In this document: piece after piece, positions 4,725 to 18,765 of the stretch
Layout: each line of letters starts with the position of its first letter
Position numbering within the stretch: position 1 is the stretch's first letter
From: Actinomadura luteofluorescens
Lineage (GTDB): Bacteria; Actinomycetota; Actinomycetes; Streptosporangiales; Streptosporangiaceae
DNA length: 64,000 nucleotides
Assembly (NCBI RefSeq): GCF_013409365.1
Contig: NZ_JACCBA010000001.1
Span: 5,394,001 to 5,458,000 of the forward strand
Direction of reading: 5' to 3'
The notes under the pieces: model-generated
What the model was told of the DNA's origin: nothing
The model's input: the letters and a program-made list of their open reading frames with translations, nothing else
Database searches by the model: none
Made by a program: the position numbers and the translations under genes

Positions 4725-4806
4725 GGCGGGTTGCCCGAGTGGCCAATGGGAGCGGACTGTAAATCCGTCGGCTTAGCCTACGCAGGTTCGAACCCTGCAC
4801 CCGCCA
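4725..4806 (+). tRNA. tRNA-Tyr (GTA), integration target
   Basis: This 82-nt class II tRNA has acceptor stem GGCGGGT/ACCCGCC, anticodon loop CTGTAAA (anticodon GTA), a long variable arm, and T arm with GGTTCGAACC. CCA is not encoded. Everything from the first base of the anticodon loop (4757) onward is repeated at 18703, so the 3' half was supplied or restored by the integrated element and the tRNA remains intact. Confidence 0.97.
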
Positions 4807-4819
4807 CACCACACAGAAC
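4757..4819 (+). repeat. attL: 63-bp direct repeat at the tRNA-Tyr 3' half
   Basis: These 63 bp are identical to 18703-18765. The identity starts exactly at the first base of the anticodon loop and runs 13 nt past the tRNA discriminator base. This is the usual crossover region of tRNA-targeting tyrosine integrases. Mismatched similarity continues beyond it because an older related element lies on the far side. Confidence 0.92.
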
Positions 4820-4946: not shown

Positions 4947-6311
4947 CTAGTCGTCCTTGAGAGCGTCCTCAATGCGGCCATTCCACATCTGCTCATGACC
5001 GTCGATGCACCCGGCGTAGACCCGTAGCAGGACATCGACGCCATGGCCGGCGCGGCGGGCGACCTCGGGCGCCGGGACGCCGGCGTTCAGGGCGAGCGTG
5101 ACGCCGCTATGGCGGAGGTCGTAGGGCCGTCCAGCCAGAGGAGAGGCCACCTGTCCGGGTGTGAGCGCCAAGTCGCGGGCGACCTGCCAGACGCGCCCGT
5201 ACACGCTCTCCGAGAGCGGCCCACCGCGCCCACCGGAGAACAGCCGGCCATCCGGCGCCGTCCCGTGCTCGGCCAGGTGATGACGCAGCAGCCGGACGAG
5301 CTCGGGCGGAATCGGCACGGGCCGAGCGACCTTCTTCGCCCGGTGCTTCAACTGCCGTTCCTCGTGGCTCGTCCCGGTGTCCGTCCACTCCGACCCGACG
5401 CGGGGCGAGTTGCCGCTGAGCAAGAGCTGGCCCCATCCCTCGTCGGGCAGGTTGATGCAGTCGCTCTTACGCAGGACTTTGGCCTCACCGGGCCGCATGT
5501 AGGCGTAGTACAGGCAGCCGTAGAACGCGGTGAGCTCGGGCCGCTTGTCCTCGATCGCGGCCAGGAGCGCCCGGACCTGGCGGGGCCGCGCCACCACGTT
5601 GCGGTTGACCTCCTCGGCGATGGCCGGGGCCTTCCAGGCCACGCGGTCGATGGGGTTCGCCGGCAAGATGTCGAGCTCTACGGCGTAGTTCAACGTGCCG
5701 TAGAAGATCGCTCGCTTCCGGGCGACGGTCTTCGCCGCGGCGGGCGTGCCGTCCATCTTGAGCGCGATCGTGTCTAGCGCCGAGCGGATGAGTTGGGACC
5801 GCTGGTCTTTCTCGTTGAGCGTGACGACCTTCAACGAGTTGTCCTGTAGCCACTTGAGCGCAGCGGCCTCCTTGCCGGTGAGCTTGGTCGTCTCTCGGCG
5901 GACCTTGTGGAAGGCCCAGCCGTACAGTGCGGCGCGTAGAACCTTGTCGTCAGGCTTCCCGCGCTTCGAGGCCACCAAGACCGGCGTGACGGTCGCGAGG
6001 GCATCGGCGATGCCCGTCCGGGACTTGGCCGCGGCGTGCGGCCACTTGAGATCCACGAACCGGCACGCGAGGTCGAACCACGTGACCGCGAGTTGGGCCC
6101 GGACCATGGACTCCGGAAGACCCGTCTCCGTGTCGAATCCCTCGCCTCTCCTTGCGGCCTGCATGAGCTTGGACCGGTAGCTGTCGGCCAACGCCCGTTC
6201 GGTGAACCATTTCGAGGATTCCCTGCCGTTGACCGTCCAACGGACGCCGTGACCGCGCTTGCGATTCTTCCTGGCCAGCCCCCAAAAGCTGACGTCGTGG
6301 GAATAGGCCAC
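4947..6311 (-). CDS. int: Tyrosine recombinase, AICE integrase
   Basis: The 454-residue site-specific recombinase should catalyse integration into and, with Xis, excision from tRNA-Tyr. The catalytic C-terminal half shows the first Arg in YYAYMRPGEAKVL, box II as YDLRHSGVT, the following His in RRAGH, and the nucleophile Tyr in LLRVYAGCID. The N-terminal third should hold the arm-binding and core-binding domains. The GTG at 6311 lies 1 nt after the xis stop, so the two are translationally coupled; the longer open frame upstream is only the xis gene in another frame. The stop lies about 130 nt from the core site, the usual AICE arrangement. Confidence 0.93.
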   Translation of the reverse strand: MAYSHDVSFWGLARKNRKRGHGVRWTVNGRESSKWFTERALADSYRSKLMQAARRGEGFDTETGLPESMVRAQLAVTWFDLACRFVDLKWPHAAAKSRTGIADALATVTPVLVASKRGKPDDKVLRAALYGWAFHKVRRETTKLTGKEAAALKWLQDNSLKVVTLNEKDQRSQLIRSALDTIALKMDGTPAAAKTVARKRAIFYGTLNYAVELDILPANPIDRVAWKAPAIAEEVNRNVVARPRQVRALLAAIEDKRPELTAFYGCLYYAYMRPGEAKVLRKSDCINLPDEGWGQLLLSGNSPRVGSEWTDTGTSHEERQLKHRAKKVARPVPIPPELVRLLRHHLAEHGTAPDGRLFSGGRGGPLSESVYGRVWQVARDLALTPGQVASPLAGRPYDLRHSGVTLALNAGVPAPEVARRAGHGVDVLLRVYAGCIDGHEQMWNGRIEDALKDD

Positions 6312-6312
6312 T

Positions 6313-6525
6313 TCAGACCGCCCCCGCGACCTCGGTGCGCGTCGAGAGCCACGCGTCGAGGTCGTCACGGTGGACGCGAATGCGTCCGTTCGGCAGCTTG
6401 ATGCACTTGGGGGCGGTGCCGAGCGTTCGCCAGGTGTCGAAGGTGCTCCGGGACACACGAAGCTCGTCGAGCACTTCGGCGAGCGTGAGCAGGTTGGACG
6501 GCGCGGCGAGATTCCGAGCGGCCAT
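6313..6525 (-). CDS. xis: Excisionase (MerR/Xis-like helix-turn-helix)
   Basis: The 70-residue product contains LLTLAEVLDELRVSRSTFDT and KLPNGRIRVHRDDLDAWLST, the layout of the helix_turn_helix_17 (excisionase) family. Such proteins bend attachment-site DNA and steer the integrase toward excision. The ATG at 6525 is preceded by AGAAGGG. It is the first gene of the xis-int pair and lies about 20-70 nt downstream (minus strand) of one copy of the conserved leader hairpin. Confidence 0.9.
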   Translation of the reverse strand: MAARNLAAPSNLLTLAEVLDELRVSRSTFDTWRTLGTAPKCIKLPNGRIRVHRDDLDAWLSTRTEVAGAV

Positions 6526-6542
6526 GCTGGGCCCTTCTGGAC

Positions 6543-6594
6543 GTGATCGGTTGGACGGTGCCGGCGGCGGGCTTGGTGGCTTGTGCGCCGGGCG
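6543..6594 (-). promoter_or_regulatory. Conserved AICE leader element, copy 1 (upstream of xis)
   Basis: This is the most divergent of three copies of an intergenic element in the AICE. On the plus strand it reads GTGATCGGTTGGA, then a GC stem around the conserved GGGCTTGGTGGCTTGTGCG. It sits directly upstream (minus-strand sense) of the xis ribosome site. The stem is weaker here than in copies 2 and 3. Confidence 0.6.
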
Positions 6595-6761
6595 ACGGAG
6601 CGTGAGGCGAGTCGAGGGCCGAGGGGGTGCGCGGGGACGGGGGACACGGGGACAGAAGGCGACACAAGGACTTGCGTCGGCTTCTGTCACCCTGTCCCGG
6701 CGTCCCGGTCGCGAGATCTGCGCCGGGAGCGGTAACGGCCCGTAACGGCGTCCGAGGCGAG

Positions 6762-8741
6762 TCACCGGAAGTCCTCCGACAGGTCGGGGTGGGTCTCGTA
6801 GCCCGGTGAGGTGGGCCGTCCTCCCGTCCGTGTGCCGGGTACCTGGCGAATCCAGCCGTGGGTTTGCAGCACACGCAGGACCGGTTCCAGGTCGGCGACC
6901 TTCCGGGCGCGATTCTTGAGCGGGCCGCGCATGAGGTCGCGGGCAGTGAATCGGGCGGTTTCGGTGCGGCGTGCCCAGTCCAGAACGGTGCGGGCATGGT
7001 TGACGGCAGGGTCGGCGCCGATGGCGTCATAAGCCGCTTGGGCGTGCGCGGTGAAGTACTCGCCGAGCTGGCAGGCTTCCCGGAACGTGGCGAGGTCGAT
7101 CGGGCGCCCGTACCCGTCGCGCAAGTGCTTCGCCAGATGAAGAAGGGCGGCAATGCGCACGACGGCGCCGACCAGCTTGCCACCCCAATCGGTCATGTGG
7201 GCCAGGTCGCCGCTACCCGGGCGAAAGCGCGGCTCGGTTGCCTCCAACAGGTCGATGACGGCCTCTTGTGCTTCGCCGGTGAACGTCAGGGCGACAGGTT
7301 CGCCGTCCGGGTCGCCGAACCTGCGCAGCGACAGGACGAGATCGGTAAGCGTCCGCTCGTAGGCGTGGGCGGCGTGCGCGGGGATTGGGGCGGGACGGGC
7401 GTTGCGGTGGCCGAGCATGGATTCCGGCATGGTGATCAGCAGGCGTCCGAGCAAGCCCTGTTCACGGAATTCGGGGGTGTCACCGAGCCCGGCCAGCACG
7501 CCGGGTTGCAGGCACACGCCGATGGTCAGGGCGGCGGCGTCGATGCGCTCGGACGAGCGGCCCACGCGCTCGATGCGCATTTCCTCGCCGGCGTGCCCGG
7601 ACAGGAAGACGCCGATGTCCGGGGAACCGGAGTAGCGGCCACCGGCGATCGAGAACAGCTTGCCGCCCTCGGGCGCCATGACGGCGTATCGGCCGTTCTG
7701 TTCGGCCAGTCGTGAGGTGACCTTCTCAACGGTCGAGTCGTTCCCGCCGAAGAGCGCGGGCTCGGCGGGCACCGTGGCGTTGTCGAGAGCCATCCGCGCG
7801 GCGGACGCGTCGGCGCGCCGGTCGAGACTGTCCGGGTGGTCGGTGGCGGCTTTCTCCGAACGCTCGGCCTCGGCCTCAGCGACCTTGCGGGCAATGGTCG
7901 CCTCGGCGATGAGCGGCGCGGCCAGGTCGGTGAGGATGCCCTCGGCGGCCCGGATGGGGCCGGTCATGGCCTTGTAGACCTCGGACTTCCGGTTCCCGGG
8001 CGGCAGGACCATGACCAAGAACAGGTTCACCGGCTCCGACCATGCCCCCGCGCTCACCGTCACGTTGCCGGCGGCGGCCACGGCGAGCGCGGCCAGGGCG
8101 AGACACCCGGCCAGATCTACCGGCGTCTGGGTGACGTCGGCGACGCCAGCGGCGTACTCGGCGGCCCAGTCCGGAAGGCACCAAATGGGGAACGTCGGCA
8201 GGTCGGGCGCGGTCGAGAGCGGCGTTGGGTCGGGCCAGCCGCGCCGGTCGGCGCCGGTCACGGCGGCGACCTCGGCGGCCACTTGCGCGCGCAGCTCGGC
8301 GGCGTCGCCCTCGGCGACGGTGGCGAGCTGGACGAGCCGGGTACCGGTCTCGGCGACGGTGCGGGCGTATGCCAGGTCCCGCACCATGTGAGCCCAGTAG
8401 ACGGCGTTCGCCGCGGTCGGGACACGGCTGATCAGCGTGTGGAGGTACGGGCCACCGCCGAGCTTGGCCAGTTGGCGGGCGCCGATGTGCGCACCGACCG
8501 AGAGCGGGTCGGCGGGCGCGCCACGGTCGGCCAGCGCGCACACCGCGTCCCAGATCTGAGCGTGCGCGGGCCGGTAGAAGTCGGCGCCGTCCAGCAGCGG
8601 CCGGACCTCGGCGAGCGCGGTCGGCGAGAGCATCACCCCGCCGAGGACGTATTGCTCGGCGTCGATGCTGTGCGGTGTCGCGTCGAGGTCGGCGCCGGCG
8701 GGCGCGCTGTCGACCACACGCAACGATGCGGGCTTGGTCAT
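6762..8741 (-). CDS. AICE replication protein: DnaB N-terminal-like plus DUF3987 helicase domain
   Basis: The 659-residue protein begins with a DnaB-type N-terminal domain (about residues 25-140; TPHSIDAEQYVLGGVMLSPT is typical). A DUF3987-type P-loop ATPase domain follows with the Walker-A variant LPPGNRKSEV near residue 245, and a predicted winged-helix tail (TARFTARDLMRGPLKNRARKV). In pSAM2 the corresponding position holds RepSA, so this protein is probably the initiator or helicase for autonomous replication of the excised element. The ATG at 8741 overlaps the upstream stop (ATGA), so it is coupled to the zinc-ribbon gene. Confidence 0.75.
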   Translation of the reverse strand: MTKPASLRVVDSAPAGADLDATPHSIDAEQYVLGGVMLSPTALAEVRPLLDGADFYRPAHAQIWDAVCALADRGAPADPLSVGAHIGARQLAKLGGGPYLHTLISRVPTAANAVYWAHMVRDLAYARTVAETGTRLVQLATVAEGDAAELRAQVAAEVAAVTGADRRGWPDPTPLSTAPDLPTFPIWCLPDWAAEYAAGVADVTQTPVDLAGCLALAALAVAAAGNVTVSAGAWSEPVNLFLVMVLPPGNRKSEVYKAMTGPIRAAEGILTDLAAPLIAEATIARKVAEAEAERSEKAATDHPDSLDRRADASAARMALDNATVPAEPALFGGNDSTVEKVTSRLAEQNGRYAVMAPEGGKLFSIAGGRYSGSPDIGVFLSGHAGEEMRIERVGRSSERIDAAALTIGVCLQPGVLAGLGDTPEFREQGLLGRLLITMPESMLGHRNARPAPIPAHAAHAYERTLTDLVLSLRRFGDPDGEPVALTFTGEAQEAVIDLLEATEPRFRPGSGDLAHMTDWGGKLVGAVVRIAALLHLAKHLRDGYGRPIDLATFREACQLGEYFTAHAQAAYDAIGADPAVNHARTVLDWARRTETARFTARDLMRGPLKNRARKVADLEPVLRVLQTHGWIRQVPGTRTGGRPTSPGYETHPDLSEDFR

Positions 8742-9094
8742 GCGGCGTCCTCGGTGAAGATGATCAGGCCCTCGGGGGTCAGGACGAACTCGTGTCCGTG
8801 CTCGCAGAGCCACAGGTCGCCCGGAGTCTCGGGGGCGAGCGCGGCCCAGCAGGTGACGACGGTGCGGCAGTGCGGGCAGTCGGGGCCGTCCAGCACGGGC
8901 CAGTGGGTGACGGGGATGAACCAGTCGGTGGGGCAGGCGCGGCAGCGCCAGACGTTGACCTCGTCGCCCTCGGCGAAAGTGGCGGGCCCAATCCATGCCA
9001 CGTCGGCGGAGCGGCGGCAGGTGGGGCAGTCGGGGGCGGCCAGCACGGGCCATTGCTCGACCGGCGGGAACGGGACTTGGTTCGGTGTCATCAT
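8738..9094 (-). CDS. Zinc-ribbon protein with internal duplication
   Basis: The 118-residue protein has paired cysteines (CPTC, CRAC, CPHC, then a C-terminal CEHGH). The motif EQWPVLAAPDCPTC recurs as THWPVLDGPDCPHC, so the fold is an internal tandem duplication of a rubredoxin-like knuckle. A strong AAGGAGGT lies before the ATG at 9094. Its stop overlaps the replication-gene start, suggesting a role in replication or its regulation. No specific function is recognised. Confidence 0.75.
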   Translation of the reverse strand: MMTPNQVPFPPVEQWPVLAAPDCPTCRRSADVAWIGPATFAEGDEVNVWRCRACPTDWFIPVTHWPVLDGPDCPHCRTVVTCWAALAPETPGDLWLCEHGHEFVLTPEGLIIFTEDAA

Positions 9095-9127
9095 GGAGTG
9101 ACCTCCTTCTAGGGACCTGGCGGTTCC

Positions 9128-9188
9128 GTGATCGGTTGGAGGTGCGGCCCTCGGCGGCGTGCTTGGTGGCTTGTGCGCCGAGGGCCGC
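9128..9188 (-). promoter_or_regulatory. Conserved AICE leader hairpin, copy 2 (upstream of the zinc-ribbon/replication operon)
   Basis: On the plus strand GTGATCGGTTGGA is followed by a perfect 13-bp stem (9144-9156 with 9176-9188) enclosing a 19-nt loop with GCTTGGTGGCTTGTG. It lies about 35-95 nt upstream of the zinc-ribbon ATG, in its 5' leader or just after the traB transcript. Loop and flank are conserved with the copies at 6543 and 14274 while the stem varies. Confidence 0.7.
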
Positions 9189-9210
9189 TTTGCCTCCTGG
9201 TGCGGGCGGT

Positions 9211-9337
9211 GTTGCACCTGGCGTTGCGGGCGGGCGGGGGTTTGGGGGTTGGTTGCCTGTTCGGCGGGGGTGCAACGCGGGTGTTGCGCCCCTGTGTTGC
9301 AGGGGTGTTGCACCTCCCGCGTTGCACCCGTTGCACC
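9211..9337. repeat. GTTGCACC repeat cluster downstream of traB (candidate clt)
   Basis: Exact GTTGCACC occurs at 9211, 9307, 9321 and 9330, with an inverted copy at 9269-9276 and near-matches at 9223, 9252, 9283 and 9296. The cluster begins about 60 nt past the traB stop. TraB translocases of Streptomyces plasmids recognise clusters of 8-bp repeats (TRS) at the clt transfer locus, often close to traB. Iterons for replication are the main alternative. Confidence 0.55.
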
Positions 9338-9398: not shown

Positions 9399-11405
9399 TC
9401 AGGCGGCGTCGGAGACGGCGAGCAGCAGGTGACGTTGGGCGTCGTCGTCGTAGCCGAGCACGCCCTGTTCGCGTAGGCGGCGGATCTGGTTCTGTGCCCA
9501 CTGGCGGGACAGGCCGGCGCCGGTCCACACCTCGGACAGGTCGGCGGTGGTGAAGTCCTCGCGGCCCTCGGCGGCCCATGCGGCGATGCGCTCACGCAGC
9601 GCCTGGCGCGCCTCGGCGGCGGTCATGGTCGGCTCGGGCCGGGTGAACTCCCATTCCTCGTCGTCGGGGTCGTCCTCGATCGGATCGTCCATGCCGGCGG
9701 TCATGGTCGGGTCGGGGTCCTCGGTGGTCAGCTCGTCGGCAGCCGACCAACCCTCGTCCGCGTCGCCTTCGGCGTCGTCGCGGGCGTCGTCCGTGGGGCC
9801 GGGCTCGCCGACCGGGCGAGCGCCCGTGGTGCCGGTGGCGTTGCCGGTGATGGCGGCGGTGAACTCGTCCACCGTCTTGCCGGTGGCGGGCCACTCGGCA
9901 GCGTGGGCGGCTATGGCGGCGGTGTCGGGCTTCCCGCTGGCGTCGAGCCATGCGAAGGTGCGCAGCGGCATCGCGATGCGCTCGATGGGGATGCCGGGGG
10001 CGTCGAGGTAGGCCATACCGGGCTGGGACGATCCCCACAGTTCCGGGCGGGCCCCGGCGTCCTCCTGAGCCTCGGACAGGCCGAACGCGGCGTCATGGGA
10101 GTTGGCGACTCCGAAGCACATGTTGGCCAGCTGGCCGCGGGCGATGGTGGGCATCTGCGTCCAGTCCGAACGCTGCAAGCTCATGACGATGGTTCCGCCG
10201 GCGGACCGGACGGCCTTGAGCAGTCGGAGGAAGGTCTCCATGCCCTTGTCGCCGAGGGCGTCGCCGATGTCGGGGAACTCCTCCAGCCACAGCACCCAGT
10301 AGGCCAGCCCGCATCCGGGCTCCCAGTTGACGTATCCGCGCGCCGAGAGCCAGTCGGTACGGGGCTTGAGCTGCGCTTCGATGTCGCTGATCAGGGACCG
10401 CACACCCTGTTTGGTGGTTTCGAAGCGGTGCAGGGCGGGGCGGAGCGGTCCGAGGGTCTGCTCTCCCTTGGTGATGTCGGCGGCGAACACCGCCACGTCC
10501 GTGCGGGTGATGATCTCGGCGAGGTAGTCCCAGGCACCGCCGATGGACTTGCCGGAGCCGGTCTTGCCCATGAACTGGCGGTGGCTTCCGGGGATGGTGT
10601 CGGCGACGTCGTCGCCGTCCTGCCAGACGCCGGGGCGGACCGGTTCGGCGATCGAGCCGCCGGGCCGGGACGGTCCGGGCCAGGGGATCGGGGCGCGCAT
10701 GATGCGCGGGTCGGACAAGGTGACCTTGGCGCGGTCGGCGCGGTCGGTGTCGGCGGCCACCGACAGGGTGCCGGGTGGCAGGCCCATGGCGCCCTCGATG
10801 TGCTCGGTCTTCTTCTGCACGTCGCCCACGGTCTTCTGTCCGGCGGGCAGCGCCATGGCGGCCTCGATCTTGCGTTCACCGGCCTTGACGGTGGCCATGC
10901 GGGCGCCGTCCAGGCCGGTGCTGTCCTTGCCTTGGTCGAACAGGAACGCCAGCGGATCGGTAACGCCGGACAGGCCGGTCTTGGCGCGGATCACGGTCCG
11001 GATGTTCCAGCCGGTGCAGACGGTCACGCCACCGGCCAGGAAGAACCAGGTCACCACCGGCTGACCGATCCCGGCGACCGAGCATGAGGTGACCCACATC
11101 CCGGTCGTGAACGTGGTGACGGTGGCGGAGCCTCGGCCGAGGATGCCGCGGGTGTGGGAGACCAGCCACGTCACCCCGGACAGGACTCCCGTCCCGAGGG
11201 TGAGGCCGATGGCCGACCATGCGACGCCGGGACCGGTGCCCCACAGGGTGTGGGCGGCGTGCCCGATTCCGGCGACGACCGGCCAGATCAGCCACGGCGG
11301 GGCGAGCGTGGCGAGTTTGGAGGCTTGGGCGGCCTTGAACCGGTCCCACGAGGCGTCGTCCACGGTGGCCAGTTGCGTGCTCTTGAGCGTGTTCTTGGCA
11401 GCCAT
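9399..11405 (-). CDS. traB: TraB-type FtsK/SpoIIIE DNA translocase (conjugal transfer)
   Basis: The 668-residue protein should pump double-stranded element DNA between hyphae. It has an N-terminal membrane region (helices around residues 37-80 and 105-130), a motor domain with Walker A GKTGSGKS (residues 280-287) and a Walker-B-like region VLWLEEFPDIG, an acidic linker (about 545-600), and a C-terminal winged helix (TTADLSEVWTGAGLSRQWAQ) like the clt-binding domain of TraB. The ATG at 11405 overlaps the upstream stop by one base. It is the only large transfer gene needed by this element class. Confidence 0.92.
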   Translation of the reverse strand: MAAKNTLKSTQLATVDDASWDRFKAAQASKLATLAPPWLIWPVVAGIGHAAHTLWGTGPGVAWSAIGLTLGTGVLSGVTWLVSHTRGILGRGSATVTTFTTGMWVTSCSVAGIGQPVVTWFFLAGGVTVCTGWNIRTVIRAKTGLSGVTDPLAFLFDQGKDSTGLDGARMATVKAGERKIEAAMALPAGQKTVGDVQKKTEHIEGAMGLPPGTLSVAADTDRADRAKVTLSDPRIMRAPIPWPGPSRPGGSIAEPVRPGVWQDGDDVADTIPGSHRQFMGKTGSGKSIGGAWDYLAEIITRTDVAVFAADITKGEQTLGPLRPALHRFETTKQGVRSLISDIEAQLKPRTDWLSARGYVNWEPGCGLAYWVLWLEEFPDIGDALGDKGMETFLRLLKAVRSAGGTIVMSLQRSDWTQMPTIARGQLANMCFGVANSHDAAFGLSEAQEDAGARPELWGSSQPGMAYLDAPGIPIERIAMPLRTFAWLDASGKPDTAAIAAHAAEWPATGKTVDEFTAAITGNATGTTGARPVGEPGPTDDARDDAEGDADEGWSAADELTTEDPDPTMTAGMDDPIEDDPDDEEWEFTRPEPTMTAAEARQALRERIAAWAAEGREDFTTADLSEVWTGAGLSRQWAQNQIRRLREQGVLGYDDDAQRHLLLAVSDAA

Positions 11406-14659: not shown

Positions 14660-15427
14660 ATGCAGCAGTCGGAGCGTCACGGGTTCCGCGACATCGCCGC
14701 GAAAATTCGTCAGGAAATCATGGACGGCCGGTACGCCACCGGGTCCGTCCTGCCGGCCGAGCCGGAGCTTGCCGACCGGTACGGGGCTTCCCGTAGCTTG
14801 GTGAACAGGGCAATGCAGGTACTCGCGGCCGAGGGTCTCGTCCGGCCTCGGCAGGGACGGGGCACGATGGTCACCTGGCTGCCGCCGATGCTCCACTCGC
14901 CGGCGCGCTACGACCGGGCCACCCGCGAGAACAACGGCGCCCGCGGCGCGTTCGACGCCGAGGTTCGGGCCCGTGGTCTGGAGCCGCAGCACGAGATCAC
15001 CACCGAGCGCGCCGAGCCGCCGGCGGCCGTCGCCGAGGCGCTCGGCCTTCCGGCCGGTGAGGTGAACTGCCTTGTCCGGCGTCGGCGACTGCTCGCCAGC
15101 GGCATTCCCGTGCGGCTCAACGCCAGTTGGTTCCCGCTCGACATCGCCGAGGGAACCGTCCTGGAGGAGGACGGCCCGGTGATCGTCGGCGGCGTCAAGA
15201 GCGCGCTTGCCGAACTCGGCTACGCGCAGACCCGGGCGCGCGAGCAGATCATCCCGAGCCGTCTGCCCACCGAGGCCGAGGCGCACGCGCTGGAGATCAG
15301 CCCTGAGCGCACGGTCGTCGAGATCACGCATGTCGGCATGACGGCCGAGGGCCGCGCCGTCGAGGTCACGGTCTCAGTCGCCCCCGCCCACTACGTGACG
15401 GCTCAGTACGAGTTCCCGCTTGCCTGA
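14660..15427 (+). CDS. GntR-family (HutC/UTRA) regulator, KorSA-like
   Basis: The 255-residue protein has an N-terminal winged helix (residues 8-75, PAEPELADRYGASRSLVNRA is the GntR signature) and a C-terminal UTRA ligand-binding domain (about 100-250). In pSAM2 the GntR repressor KorSA controls the activator and hence excision and transfer; this gene occupies the same divergent position with two palindromes in its promoter region. AGGAAGGAG precedes the ATG at 14660. The UTRA domain implies control by a small molecule. Confidence 0.88.
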   Translation: MQQSERHGFRDIAAKIRQEIMDGRYATGSVLPAEPELADRYGASRSLVNRAMQVLAAEGLVRPRQGRGTMVTWLPPMLHSPARYDRATRENNGARGAFDAEVRARGLEPQHEITTERAEPPAAVAEALGLPAGEVNCLVRRRRLLASGIPVRLNASWFPLDIAEGTVLEEDGPVIVGGVKSALAELGYAQTRAREQIIPSRLPTEAEAHALEISPERTVVEITHVGMTAEGRAVEVTVSVAPAHYVTAQYEFPLA

Positions 15428-15449
15428 CAACCGGAAGAGACCACATCCG

Positions 15450-16610
15450 ATGATCACGCGCCTAGTCGAAGACCACGCCCAAGCCCTTGCCGGCAAGGGC
15501 GAGCTACCCGCGTTCGTCTACGACCTCGCCGCGCTGCGTGAGGACGCGGCCGAGGTCAAGGCCGCGCTCTCGGAGCCCGGTGCGCCGGAGATCTTCTATG
15601 CCGCGAAGGCCAACCCGGACGCGCCGATCCTCCAGGCTCTCGCCCCGTACGTCGATGGCGTCGAGGTCGCGTCCGGCGGCGAGTTGGCGCACGTGCGCGA
15701 GGCATTGCCGGACGCTCGGTTGGCGTTCGGCGGCCCCGGCAAGACCGACGACGAACTACGGCTTGCCCTCGACCTCGGTGTCGAGCGCATCCACGTCGAA
15801 AGCCCCTATGAGCTGTCCCGCCTGGCCGACATCGCTCGGGCGTCCGGCCGCGAGGTCGATGTCCTGCTACGGGTCAACCTCGCCGGCGACCGCAGCGGCG
15901 TCGCGCTCGCCATGAGCGGCCCGTTCGGCATGGACCCGGAACTTATCGAGTCGTGCACCGGCATCCTGGAGAACTCTCCGCAGGTGCGCCTCCGCGGCAT
16001 TCACGCGCACTTGGCGTCCGGCCTGGACGCCTCCGCCATGGTCGCCCAGTCCGCCGAGATCCTCGCGTGGGGCCGCGCGTGGCTCGACAGGATCGGCCAC
16101 ACCGGACCGCGTGAGTTCAACCTCGGCGGCGGCATGGCCGTCGACTACTCCACACCCGAGACCCGATTCGACTGGAAGCAGTACGGCGCCGACGTCGCCG
16201 CGCTCGCCGAGCCGGGCGAAACGCTGCGCATCGAACCGGGCCGCTCCATCAGCGTCTACGCCGGGTGGTACCTCACCGAGGTCCTGGACGTGAAGAAGGC
16301 ACACGGCCAGTGGTACGCCGTCCTACGCGGCGGCACCATGCACATCCGCACACCCGTCACCAAGCAACACAACCACCCGCACGACATCCTCACCCGCAAC
16401 GGCGACGGCCCTGCAGCCGCCGGTGAGCCCGTGACTCTCGTCGGCCAACTCTGCACTCCGAAAGACGTATTCGCACGCGAAGTCCCCACAGACCGCATCG
16501 CCGTCGGCGATCTAGTCGCCTTCTCCATGTCCGGCGCCTACGCCTGGAACATCTCCCACCACGACTTCCTAATGCACCCTAAGCCAGCCTTTTCCTACCT
16601 CGACAACTAG
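15450..16610 (+). CDS. Group III PLP-dependent decarboxylase (DAP/ornithine decarboxylase-like)
   Basis: The 386-residue alanine-racemase-fold enzyme shows the PLP lysine in FYAAKAN (K53), HAHLASGLD, the phosphate-binding FNLGGGMAVDY, EPGRSIS, the C-terminal catalytic Cys/Asp in LCTPKDVFARE, and SMSGAYAWN. This matches diaminopimelate/ornithine/arginine-type decarboxylases; the substrate cannot be read from sequence. It follows the GntR gene by 22 nt (an alternative TTG at 15420 overlaps it), so the two are co-expressed. A metabolic enzyme coupled to an AICE repressor is unusual. Confidence 0.82.
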   Translation: MITRLVEDHAQALAGKGELPAFVYDLAALREDAAEVKAALSEPGAPEIFYAAKANPDAPILQALAPYVDGVEVASGGELAHVREALPDARLAFGGPGKTDDELRLALDLGVERIHVESPYELSRLADIARASGREVDVLLRVNLAGDRSGVALAMSGPFGMDPELIESCTGILENSPQVRLRGIHAHLASGLDASAMVAQSAEILAWGRAWLDRIGHTGPREFNLGGGMAVDYSTPETRFDWKQYGADVAALAEPGETLRIEPGRSISVYAGWYLTEVLDVKKAHGQWYAVLRGGTMHIRTPVTKQHNHPHDILTRNGDGPAAAGEPVTLVGQLCTPKDVFAREVPTDRIAVGDLVAFSMSGAYAWNISHHDFLMHPKPAFSYLDN

Positions 16611-16698: not shown

Positions 16699-18537
16699 TC
16701 AGGCCGTGCTCCCTTTGCGTGATGCCGCGTGGGTAGGAGGATCGAGTTCTACTCGATAAACCCGAACTCCTTTACGGGCCTCATGCTGATTTAGTTTGGT
16801 CATAATGCCAACGCGATCTCCGGCGTTTGCTGCATTGACTTGTCGATCGTTAATACGCAGAGAGGTGACCGACTCTTCGACGAAGTCGACTGGCAGTTCA
16901 TAGGCAATGCGGTCGCCTACGTGTAGTGGTCCACTCTGGAGGCGTAGTCCAAGTGCAGATGCCTTCGCCCAGTAGCCATCTACGTAACCAATCGGTTTGT
17001 AGTGCGCTGGTAGGGGGCACATGCGACCGGAGGTAACGAACAACTCGGCGACATCCTCATGCCGCCAATCATTGCTAATGAAGCCCCGGACAAGTCGGAA
17101 CAGGTCCCATGTCGTCAGCAGTGTTAGGTCTTGCTCTTTGGCGGTCGTGAGAACGTCCGACTGAAAAACGTGCTCGTGTTCCCGGTCGAGCGCAGGAAGG
17201 TTTCGCTGGTGATTCACTATGGCCAAACCGTGAATGTCTGTGCGACCCCACTCTTTCATTCGCGGTGCAATGTACTTAGCAACCTGTAGAGCGTTGACTT
17301 CTTTGGGCTTACCAGTGATGCCCTTGACTTCGACAAGCACCGGCATAGGTGCGTCCATAATCCGCAAATCCTCTCGGCGAGGACCAGTTTCACCAGCGGC
17401 CTCGGCCTCGGCGTCGACGTCACGGACATCGTGGAACCCTATTGTCTGAAGGGCATGAATCACAGCCTGGACCAAATCATCGCCGGTTGCAGTGACAAGG
17501 TCGTGCAGGAAACCGTACCGTTGGCGCTCATTTTCAATCTTCTCTTCAAGCTGGCGTACGCGGGTACGAGAATCCTCCTGTATTGCCGTGATCTCGCTCT
17601 TGAGGGAGGCTATCCGAGGGAGGTCATATTCTGGACGACGGGTCCAGCGACTGCCTTCGGCGTGAGGAAACAGCCGTGGTGACATCTCTGGGAGAATTCG
17701 TTCAACGAGTTCAACCACTAGTTCCCTTCTTCGGCTTAGCTGAGGGAAAATGAAAATCAGGTTAAGATTGCCTTCCTGCTCCTCTGTGAAAAGTCCGGCG
17801 ACGGGATCGCCGTACTTGTTTGTGGCGAGTGTCGACCAATTTTCCTCGTAGCCTCTTCCAGGCTTGACGACGCATTCAAAGTGGCCATCGTCGAAGTAGC
17901 CATCGATCCCGAGTCTTCGTGCAACACCGTTATCGGCGACGTCCATCTCCTGTCCCGTGTCCTTGTGAACAGCGAGTCGTCGTAGTGCAGGCAAAAGGCA
18001 CCAGTTATCAGCTAGATAGGGCCTTGCGCGCAGGGAATCGAGATCGCCAGAGTAATCGTGGCGTTCGCCCACCATATATTTCGGGTCAAAAGGTGCGGCT
18101 GCGAAAATGACAAAGACGCCGCCGTGGCGGTAGATGCGGTTCATTGAACCTTGTGCATGCAGCATCGCCATTGGGCGCTCGTCGATCAAACCATACTTCG
18201 CTGGCGCCCAGACTGTAGTCACCCCAGGTGAGGGGTGCGCAAAAGATTCCTTCGTGCCTTCCGCTGGAGTTTGGCCTGAAAGGTTTGCGACGATGATTTC
18301 TTGCTCCGTGTGCCCCGGAAGGTCTGGGACCGGTTTCAACGCAACATAGCTTGCGGATCTGTTGACAAGGAAGCGTTTGCCGAACGTCCCCAATACAGCA
18401 GCGTAACCGCGGAGCTGTAAAGCTTCGACAATGTCTGGATCGTCATCAATTACAAGGATCTTGGGACTGGTGTACTTGGGTTTGGAGGCGATCTCTGAAA
18501 GTGTGGGCCGCCTATTTGATCTCCATATCGAAGGCAA
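16699..18537 (-). CDS. AICE cargo protein: predicted PD-(D/E)XK nuclease domain plus EF-Tu-domain-2-like barrel
   Basis: The 612-residue protein matches no family I can name. An N-terminal alpha/beta region opens with PKILVIDDDPDIVEAL. A large unassigned region follows to about residue 295, then a coiled coil (about 305-345, LKSEITAIQEDSRTRVRQLE). Next comes a restriction-endonuclease-like block (about 355-470: GFHDVRDVD, REDLRI, LVEVKGITGKP, ALQVAKY), then a C-terminal barrel (about 540-600: SGPLHVGDRI, EESVTSLRIN, AANAGDRVGI) like EF-Tu domain 2. It is visibly more AT-rich than its neighbours and lies beside attR, typical of acquired cargo. TTG at 18537 with GAAGGGA upstream is the likely start. 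A defence role is plausible but inferred. Confidence 0.65.
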   Translation of the reverse strand: MPSIWRSNRRPTLSEIASKPKYTSPKILVIDDDPDIVEALQLRGYAAVLGTFGKRFLVNRSASYVALKPVPDLPGHTEQEIIVANLSGQTPAEGTKESFAHPSPGVTTVWAPAKYGLIDERPMAMLHAQGSMNRIYRHGGVFVIFAAAPFDPKYMVGERHDYSGDLDSLRARPYLADNWCLLPALRRLAVHKDTGQEMDVADNGVARRLGIDGYFDDGHFECVVKPGRGYEENWSTLATNKYGDPVAGLFTEEQEGNLNLIFIFPQLSRRRELVVELVERILPEMSPRLFPHAEGSRWTRRPEYDLPRIASLKSEITAIQEDSRTRVRQLEEKIENERQRYGFLHDLVTATGDDLVQAVIHALQTIGFHDVRDVDAEAEAAGETGPRREDLRIMDAPMPVLVEVKGITGKPKEVNALQVAKYIAPRMKEWGRTDIHGLAIVNHQRNLPALDREHEHVFQSDVLTTAKEQDLTLLTTWDLFRLVRGFISNDWRHEDVAELFVTSGRMCPLPAHYKPIGYVDGYWAKASALGLRLQSGPLHVGDRIAYELPVDFVEESVTSLRINDRQVNAANAGDRVGIMTKLNQHEARKGVRVYRVELDPPTHAASRKGSTA

Positions 18538-18702
18538 GGTTGATCCCTTCGGTAGTCAGCTACGACCGATCAGTCACCGGGTATCGTGCAACTCGTTCGG
18601 TCGCTTGAGCGGGACCCTGACGGAACGAATGTGGCCAGGCGTAGCCCAGGTAGGAGCCTAGCCGCAGGTCACCTGCGAGATGGCCATAACTCCGTGTTCT
18701 CT

Positions 18703-18765
18703 CTGTAAATCCGTCGGCTTAGCCTACGCAGGTTCGAACCCTGCACCCGCCACACCACACAGAAC
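18703..18765 (+). repeat. attR: 63-bp direct repeat (tRNA-Tyr 3' half)
   Basis: It is identical to 4757-4819. Only the 3' half of the tRNA is present, so it is not a functional tRNA gene. It marks the far end of the AICE. Confidence 0.92.

Follow-up and report, generated by a model that had tools for sequence, protein, structure and literature searches.

A rare gene of an actinobacterial integrative and conjugative element, probable defense cargo, joins a FokI-like nuclease to an amidotransferase-like domain and a translation-factor-type barrel

What might a nuclease joined to a translation-factor-type barrel do for the mobile element that carries it? The gene that raises this question, here called gene X (16699..18537, minus strand), lies in a 64,000-nucleotide stretch of DNA from Actinomadura luteofluorescens (contig NZ_JACCBA010000001.1), the whole of which we refer to as the window. 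We favor, with moderate confidence, the explanation that gene X is mobile defense cargo and likely encodes an anti-phage nuclease not described before. Its carrier is an actinobacterial integrative and conjugative element (AICE), which agrees with the cargo setting proposed in an earlier note made from the sequence of the window. The features of an AICE were present: a tRNA-Tyr gene (4725..4807, plus strand) as the integration target, a 63-bp direct repeat forming the attL core (4757..4819, plus strand) and, in an identical copy, the attR core (18703..18765, plus strand), a tyrosine integrase (4947..6665, minus strand; Pfam Phage_integrase, E 3e-6) and a replication protein with DnaB-N and DUF3987 domains (6762..9275, minus strand; Pfam). 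An FtsK/TraB-like transfer ATPase (9399..11405, minus strand) was recognized by eye from its Walker A motif GKTGSGKS and had no Pfam match at 0.001. Profile matches identified a WhiB regulator, a GntR regulator (14660..15427, plus strand) and a PLP decarboxylase cargo gene (15420..16610, plus strand) that is convergent with gene X. The GntR gene overlaps this decarboxylase gene, which is of the ornithine/DAP type (window 14660-16610). No further gene lies between gene X and attR; X is flanked by the decarboxylase gene on one side and, beyond attR, by a PLD-like gene, so that no cognate methyltransferase lies directly beside it in the window.

Gene X is one intact reading frame, is present as a single copy in the host genome and has a GC content of 54.5%, versus 69.8% for the window. 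It encodes 612 amino acids from a TTG start codon, seven bases upstream of which is a likely ribosome-binding site, GAAGGG (18545..18550, minus strand; by eye). The protein had no match over the cut-off in Pfam, none in NCBIfam and none among the PADLOC-DB 2.0.0 models at E values up to 1. An AlphaFold2 model with a pLDDT of 94.1 resolved it into four parts, all encoded on the minus strand. The N-terminal region, to which the earlier note had given no identity, adopts a class-I amidotransferase/ThuA-like fold (residues ~20-285; 17683..18480, fold match) and is followed by a coiled-coil helix (residues 307-340; 17518..17619), a FokI-like PD-(D/E)XK nuclease domain (residues 341-508; 17014..17517, fold match and alignment) and an EF-Tu-domain-2-type beta barrel (residues 513-597; 16747..17001) whose closest fold match is the C-terminal domain of U32 peptidases. 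Structure prediction thus bore out the coiled coil, the restriction-like nuclease fold and the barrel with its likeness to U32 tails, all of which had been proposed in the earlier note. Identity as a U32 peptidase or a GTPase was set aside, there being no such domains in the Pfam scan, and no DNA-recognition domain was recognizable in the protein. The architecture was absent from the titles and abstract openings of the literature searched, which is limited evidence only of its novelty.

The catalytic site of the nuclease, D390 ... E403-V-K405 (residues 390-405; 17323..17370, minus strand), was located in an alignment of 99 relatives. D390 and K405 were invariant in all 99 rows, and position 403 was E in 91 and D in 8; also invariant within the domain were E389, G406, K421, N442 and R452. 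Both the alpha-beta core fold and the D...(D/E)-x-K site of the PD-(D/E)XK superfamily were present. For the N-terminal domain the structure model likewise shows the fold of class-I glutamine amidotransferases, but protein X differs from these enzymes and from ThuA-like proteins in having no conserved nucleophile Cys at the expected elbow, residues 146-148, which were mostly A, D/A and P/A across the 99 rows. The sole Cys kept in more than half of the rows was at position 222 (80/99). A pocket in this domain was nevertheless conserved, with D119, R121 and K241 in 98 rows each, G140 and G195 in 99 and E197 in 93 and with G139 as a further member, and its conservation fits a putative ligand-binding sensor. 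Positions conserved in at least 90% of rows numbered 38 in the nuclease, 32 in the N-terminal domain and 6 in the barrel, the folded domain with the least strict conservation.

The barrel merits separate consideration, as the earlier note had suggested that it might sense a tRNA- or translation-linked target. Its fold in the structure model is that of EF-Tu domain 2; the PF03144 score was 13.4 bits against a cut-off of 30.3, and two among the 120 homologues listed carried PF03144. In one MAFFT alignment that included the EF-Tu of the host, the Glu of the V-E-M-F motif and the Asn of the D-N-V-G motif, which we take to hold the 3' end of aminoacyl-tRNA, aligned with R561 and R575 of protein X. 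Since these EF-Tu residues are absent, a reading of tRNA by the barrel is unsupported at the residue level, and EF-Tu-type tRNA binding was set aside as a firm claim. That the barrel is a module added to X is shown by a barrel-less sister family. The nuclease part of the X profile also matched four other proteins of 457-482 aa in the window's family of organisms, and a protein search with one of these returned 215 relatives. Members of this family (~465 aa) have the amidotransferase-like domain, the coil and the PD-(D/E)XK domain as in X, and no barrel. They are largely without names, the matches listed being mostly hypothetical proteins with a few called Mrr-type, DUF4263 or restriction endonuclease. 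Aligned with X by hhalign (probability 99.4, E 2.4e-21), the family matched over 413 columns across the N-terminus, coil and nuclease, and the match stopped where the barrel of X starts; R-x-D ... E-x-K-G was invariant in 28 of 28 rows of the family's own alignment.

Stand-alone EF-Tu-domain-2-like barrel proteins of 85-95 aa occurred in many of the sampled Actinomycetota genomes (L034-L060). In that sample 54 of the 58 genomes with a match, as counted from the table, covered the barrel region alone, often in open frames of 85-95 aa and in six cases in frames of >500 aa. PF03144 was matched, below its cut-off, by two of these short proteins (E 6.7e-6 and 5e-4). At the place of V-T-S-L-R in X, the alignment with the host EF-Tu gives the small proteins V-x-S-(L/M/I)-Q, and they likewise have neither the V-E-M-F Glu nor the D-N-V-G Asn. 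These small proteins and the U32-peptidase C-terminal domain are single-domain proteins or enzyme tails, whereas in X the barrel is fused to a nuclease, a fusion that was not seen outside the X family in the proteins compared.

Gene X is very rare, yet spread over many phyla. Two protein searches returned 180 and 182 relatives, which were unnamed or hypothetical where a name was shown among the 120 listed per search. Of 396 genomes sampled from the window's phylum 2 had a full-length copy, as did 2 of 200 from its family; at a cut-off of 1e-40 the figures were 1 of 300 for the order that includes Paraburkholderia, 1 of 292 for the Scytonema phylum and 3 of 294 for the phylum to which a Phycisphaeraceae bin belongs. 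Every one of these figures takes in a query or center genome already known to carry the gene. Beyond known carriers the gene was present in 4 of 1,477 sampled genomes, one of the four (G1240) being a contig already counted as L010; the whole-genome searches scored 3-6 candidates per genome and may have missed a copy. A scan of genome contigs found 26 loci in many phyla. Carriers include Actinomycetota, Pseudomonadota, Cyanobacteriota, Planctomycetota, Bacteroidota, Bacillota and Eisenbacteria as well as archaeal bins of Methanothrix, with a copy cut by the contig end, and of Asgard archaea, with a 273-aa version. E. coli genomes searched with one Klebsiella relative gave no match, and IMG/VR yielded one contig alone. 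A housekeeping role was set aside because the gene is too rare. A tree built from 30 of 33 rows (L018, L020 and L024, which were too short, and L019 were left out) mostly followed phylum, requiring 8 changes where the minimum possible was 7, which argues that recent transfer between phyla has not been rampant. Pseudomonadota, Planctomycetota and Cyanobacteriota, however, required 2, 3 and 2 changes, and the copy from Herbaspirillum clustered with two cyanobacterial copies with support of 100/100. The copy of Plesiocystis pacifica (L019; G606:C94:14524-16232) looks broken, as its match is in two pieces, one of them with a stop codon.

The neighborhoods of 33 relatives (L001-L029, L066, L085, L086 and L088; L087 was dropped as it lies on the same contig as L010) were then read, with neighbors named largely by eye and part of the proteins identified individually by profile. 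Type I restriction-modification (R-M) genes, identified with Pfam, adjoined X in four of them (L005, L007, L024 and L026). In two of the four, X lies exactly between hsdS and hsdR: the order in L005 is hsdM, a four-helix gene, hsdS, X and hsdR, with X 4 and 7 bases from its neighbors, and that in L007 is hsdM, hsdS, X and hsdR, with X overlapping the flanking genes by 1 and 4 bases. Locus L026 reads hsdR, X, hsdM, a YhcG nuclease gene and hsdS (the last by eye), and its HsdR type and gene order differ from those of L005, although the two X copies are sisters. The copy in L007 falls in a different clade of the tree from the L005/L026 pair, so the linkage to R-M genes has either had more than one origin or been lost repeatedly. 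In L024 a C-terminal remnant of X is preceded by hsdM and Fic and followed by a further gene and hsdR. Here (L024:9153-10468) the Fic gene is followed after two bases by the C-terminal 141 residues of X within the type I operon, as if Fic had taken the place of the front part of X. Across 21 X-bearing genomes (126.4 Mb) there were 31 HsdM_N matches, and in three of the genomes one lay within 5 kb of X, versus 0.07 expected (Poisson P about 5e-5). It is important to note that this comparison was framed after the operons had been seen, that the genomes were picked for bearing X and that one of the three (L024/G610) carries only the 141-aa remnant.

Other defense genes were also found near relatives of X. 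On L027 the PADLOC model for PifA matched the gene next upstream of X (E 2e-261) and that for PD-T4-5 a gene about 3 kb downstream (E 4e-114), and in L085 the PADLOC candidate PDC-S11 adjoins X (E 3e-152). Weaker matches near X were to SIR2 in L066 (E 2e-9), to a methyl-directed restriction enzyme in L021 (E 7e-7) and to Csm3 in L018 (E 1e-6), where the matched gene overlaps X by 4 bases, hinting at a CRISPR-linked use. The last locus (L018:3265-5129) is from an Asgard (Helarchaeota) bin and its X consists of coil, nuclease and barrel without the N-terminal domain, beside the Csm3-like RAMP gene. Among ten hand-picked neighbor proteins, four had no PADLOC match and three had weak ones (E 1e-6 to 2e-9). 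At 1e-8, 201 PADLOC families were matched by 144 neighbor proteins versus 8 by 128 control proteins, a tally inflated in that the 25 families shown are nearly all overlapping models of a few type I/II methyltransferases and specificity subunits. The neighbor proteins came from 144 of 168 open reading frames, the 24 omitted being mostly doubtful calls in GC-rich loci, and the controls from 128 of 181 frames in 13 windows. No obvious defense or mobile neighbor was seen by eye in 18 or 19 of the 33 loci, many of them on short contigs. The defense role suggested in the earlier note is thus supported by the R-M, PADLOC-matched and mobile genes in the neighborhoods of some relatives, although most loci are without them; nor are the contexts consistently housekeeping ones.

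With regard to how protein X might act, we infer that it senses infection, dimerizes, cuts nucleic acid and thereby has an anti-phage effect. The catalytically dead amidotransferase/ThuA-like pocket would sense a ligand or partner that is produced or altered in the course of infection. The coiled coil may serve to pair two X subunits, since domains of the FokI type cut only with a partner. The PD-(D/E)XK domain, with its intact site, would then cut nucleic acid, while the barrel would position the protein on its target or partner. In the window's AICE, X stands alone, convergent with its neighbor; in some other hosts it is found within type I restriction operons or a defense island, where it may be an accessory effector.

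Two versions of this defense reading were weighed, and that in which DNA is cut appears the likelier. In it, which we hold only tentatively, X is a restriction-like enzyme whose barrel and N-terminal domain recognize a feature of foreign DNA or a phage protein, and there is no link to translation. FokI itself binds DNA sequence-specifically through separate domains and is accompanied by a cognate methyltransferase, and FokI-type domains cut DNA. Among the matches listed, that of the nuclease fold was FokI, restriction loci adjoin four relatives and the plasmid and phage-like settings of others would suit competition between elements. Protein X shares the cleavage-domain fold of FokI, but neither FokI's DNA-binding domains nor its methyltransferase were seen in or beside it. 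Because the genes flanking X in the window encode a decarboxylase and a PLD-like protein, self-protection would need another basis.

The other version, which we regard as rather unlikely, is modeled on PrrC: X would be a latent nuclease silenced by a partner, be it the type I enzyme or the amidotransferase-like domain of X itself, and freed when a phage disables the guard, whereupon the barrel would aim it at tRNA or some other translation component and protein synthesis would stop. PrrC and RloC combine an ABC-ATPase with an anticodon-nuclease domain, and prrC has the specificity gene on one side and the restriction gene on the other. The position of X in L005 and L007 matches this arrangement, the linkage to R-M genes recurs in different clades and the barrel is of the translation-factor kind. 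One source places prrC inside a type IC operon (PMC3874165), and another describes the link of PrrC orthologues to type Ic systems as invariable and PrrC as having an ABC-type ATPase (PMC2610378). Protein X has no such ATPase and is not a PrrC family member: PrrC/RloC domains gave no Pfam match at E values up to 1, and the model shows other folds. In the DNA read, 29 of the relatives' 33 loci had no type I R-M neighbor, and the window does not show such linkage either; the EF-Tu residues assumed to hold the tRNA end are not conserved, and DNA is the substrate of FokI-type domains. We speculate further, with considerable doubt, that X may be a restriction-linked guard nuclease, acting in the PrrC position of type I operons or by itself in mobile elements, in which the dead amidotransferase pocket silences the FokI-like nuclease until infection changes its ligand, the barrel directing the cut to translation machinery or RNA. 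If this were true, phage attack on restriction would be answered by a shutdown of protein synthesis. More generally, if the defense reading is right, X would represent a new defense family in which a FokI-like nuclease has a sensor fold resembling amidotransferases on one side and a barrel of the translation-factor type on the other. The PrrC setting in type I operons could then be filled by an unrelated effector, which would suggest a second line behind restriction, and X offers a concrete AICE cargo gene for testing.

Mobile settings were evident for a number of relatives. Locus L013 has an integrase beside X and a P2-type capsid scaffold gene at a distance of 5.4 kb, L025 encodes a conjugative coupling protein, L085 has an integrase about 5 kb from X and L066 is a contig of the viral collection with a terminase. 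Loci L027-L029 are plasmids, the first of them a conjugative plasmid of Klebsiella; of five plasmid matches, H3 and H4 were left out of the locus reading, as was the one match in a phage record, H6. Genome G530 holds a second AICE-like element, in which an X that is 62% identical has a 39-base tRNA-Arg remnant on one side and an integrase on the other. When ten proteins of the window's AICE were compared with this 60-kb stretch of G530, matches were limited to X (62%), the integrase (49-50%) and GntR (26-28%), so X does not depend on a single element backbone. It is improbable that X instead serves the element in transfer, maintenance or stress and repair, with the restriction neighbors of some relatives present by chance or hitch-hiking: such a role would suit the ordinary neighbors seen by eye in more than half of the loci and the location of X, which is close to att in the window and, in G530, close to an integrase and a remnant of att, but X is not bound to one backbone and is also present in plasmids and R-M operons, its active site being invariant. 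The G530 site itself (L089-L091; G530:C1:1570001-1630000) has one integrase gene and one GntR gene in the interval from the tRNA-Arg remnant to the tRNA-Arg and a second of each beyond that tRNA, as if two AICE-like elements share it.
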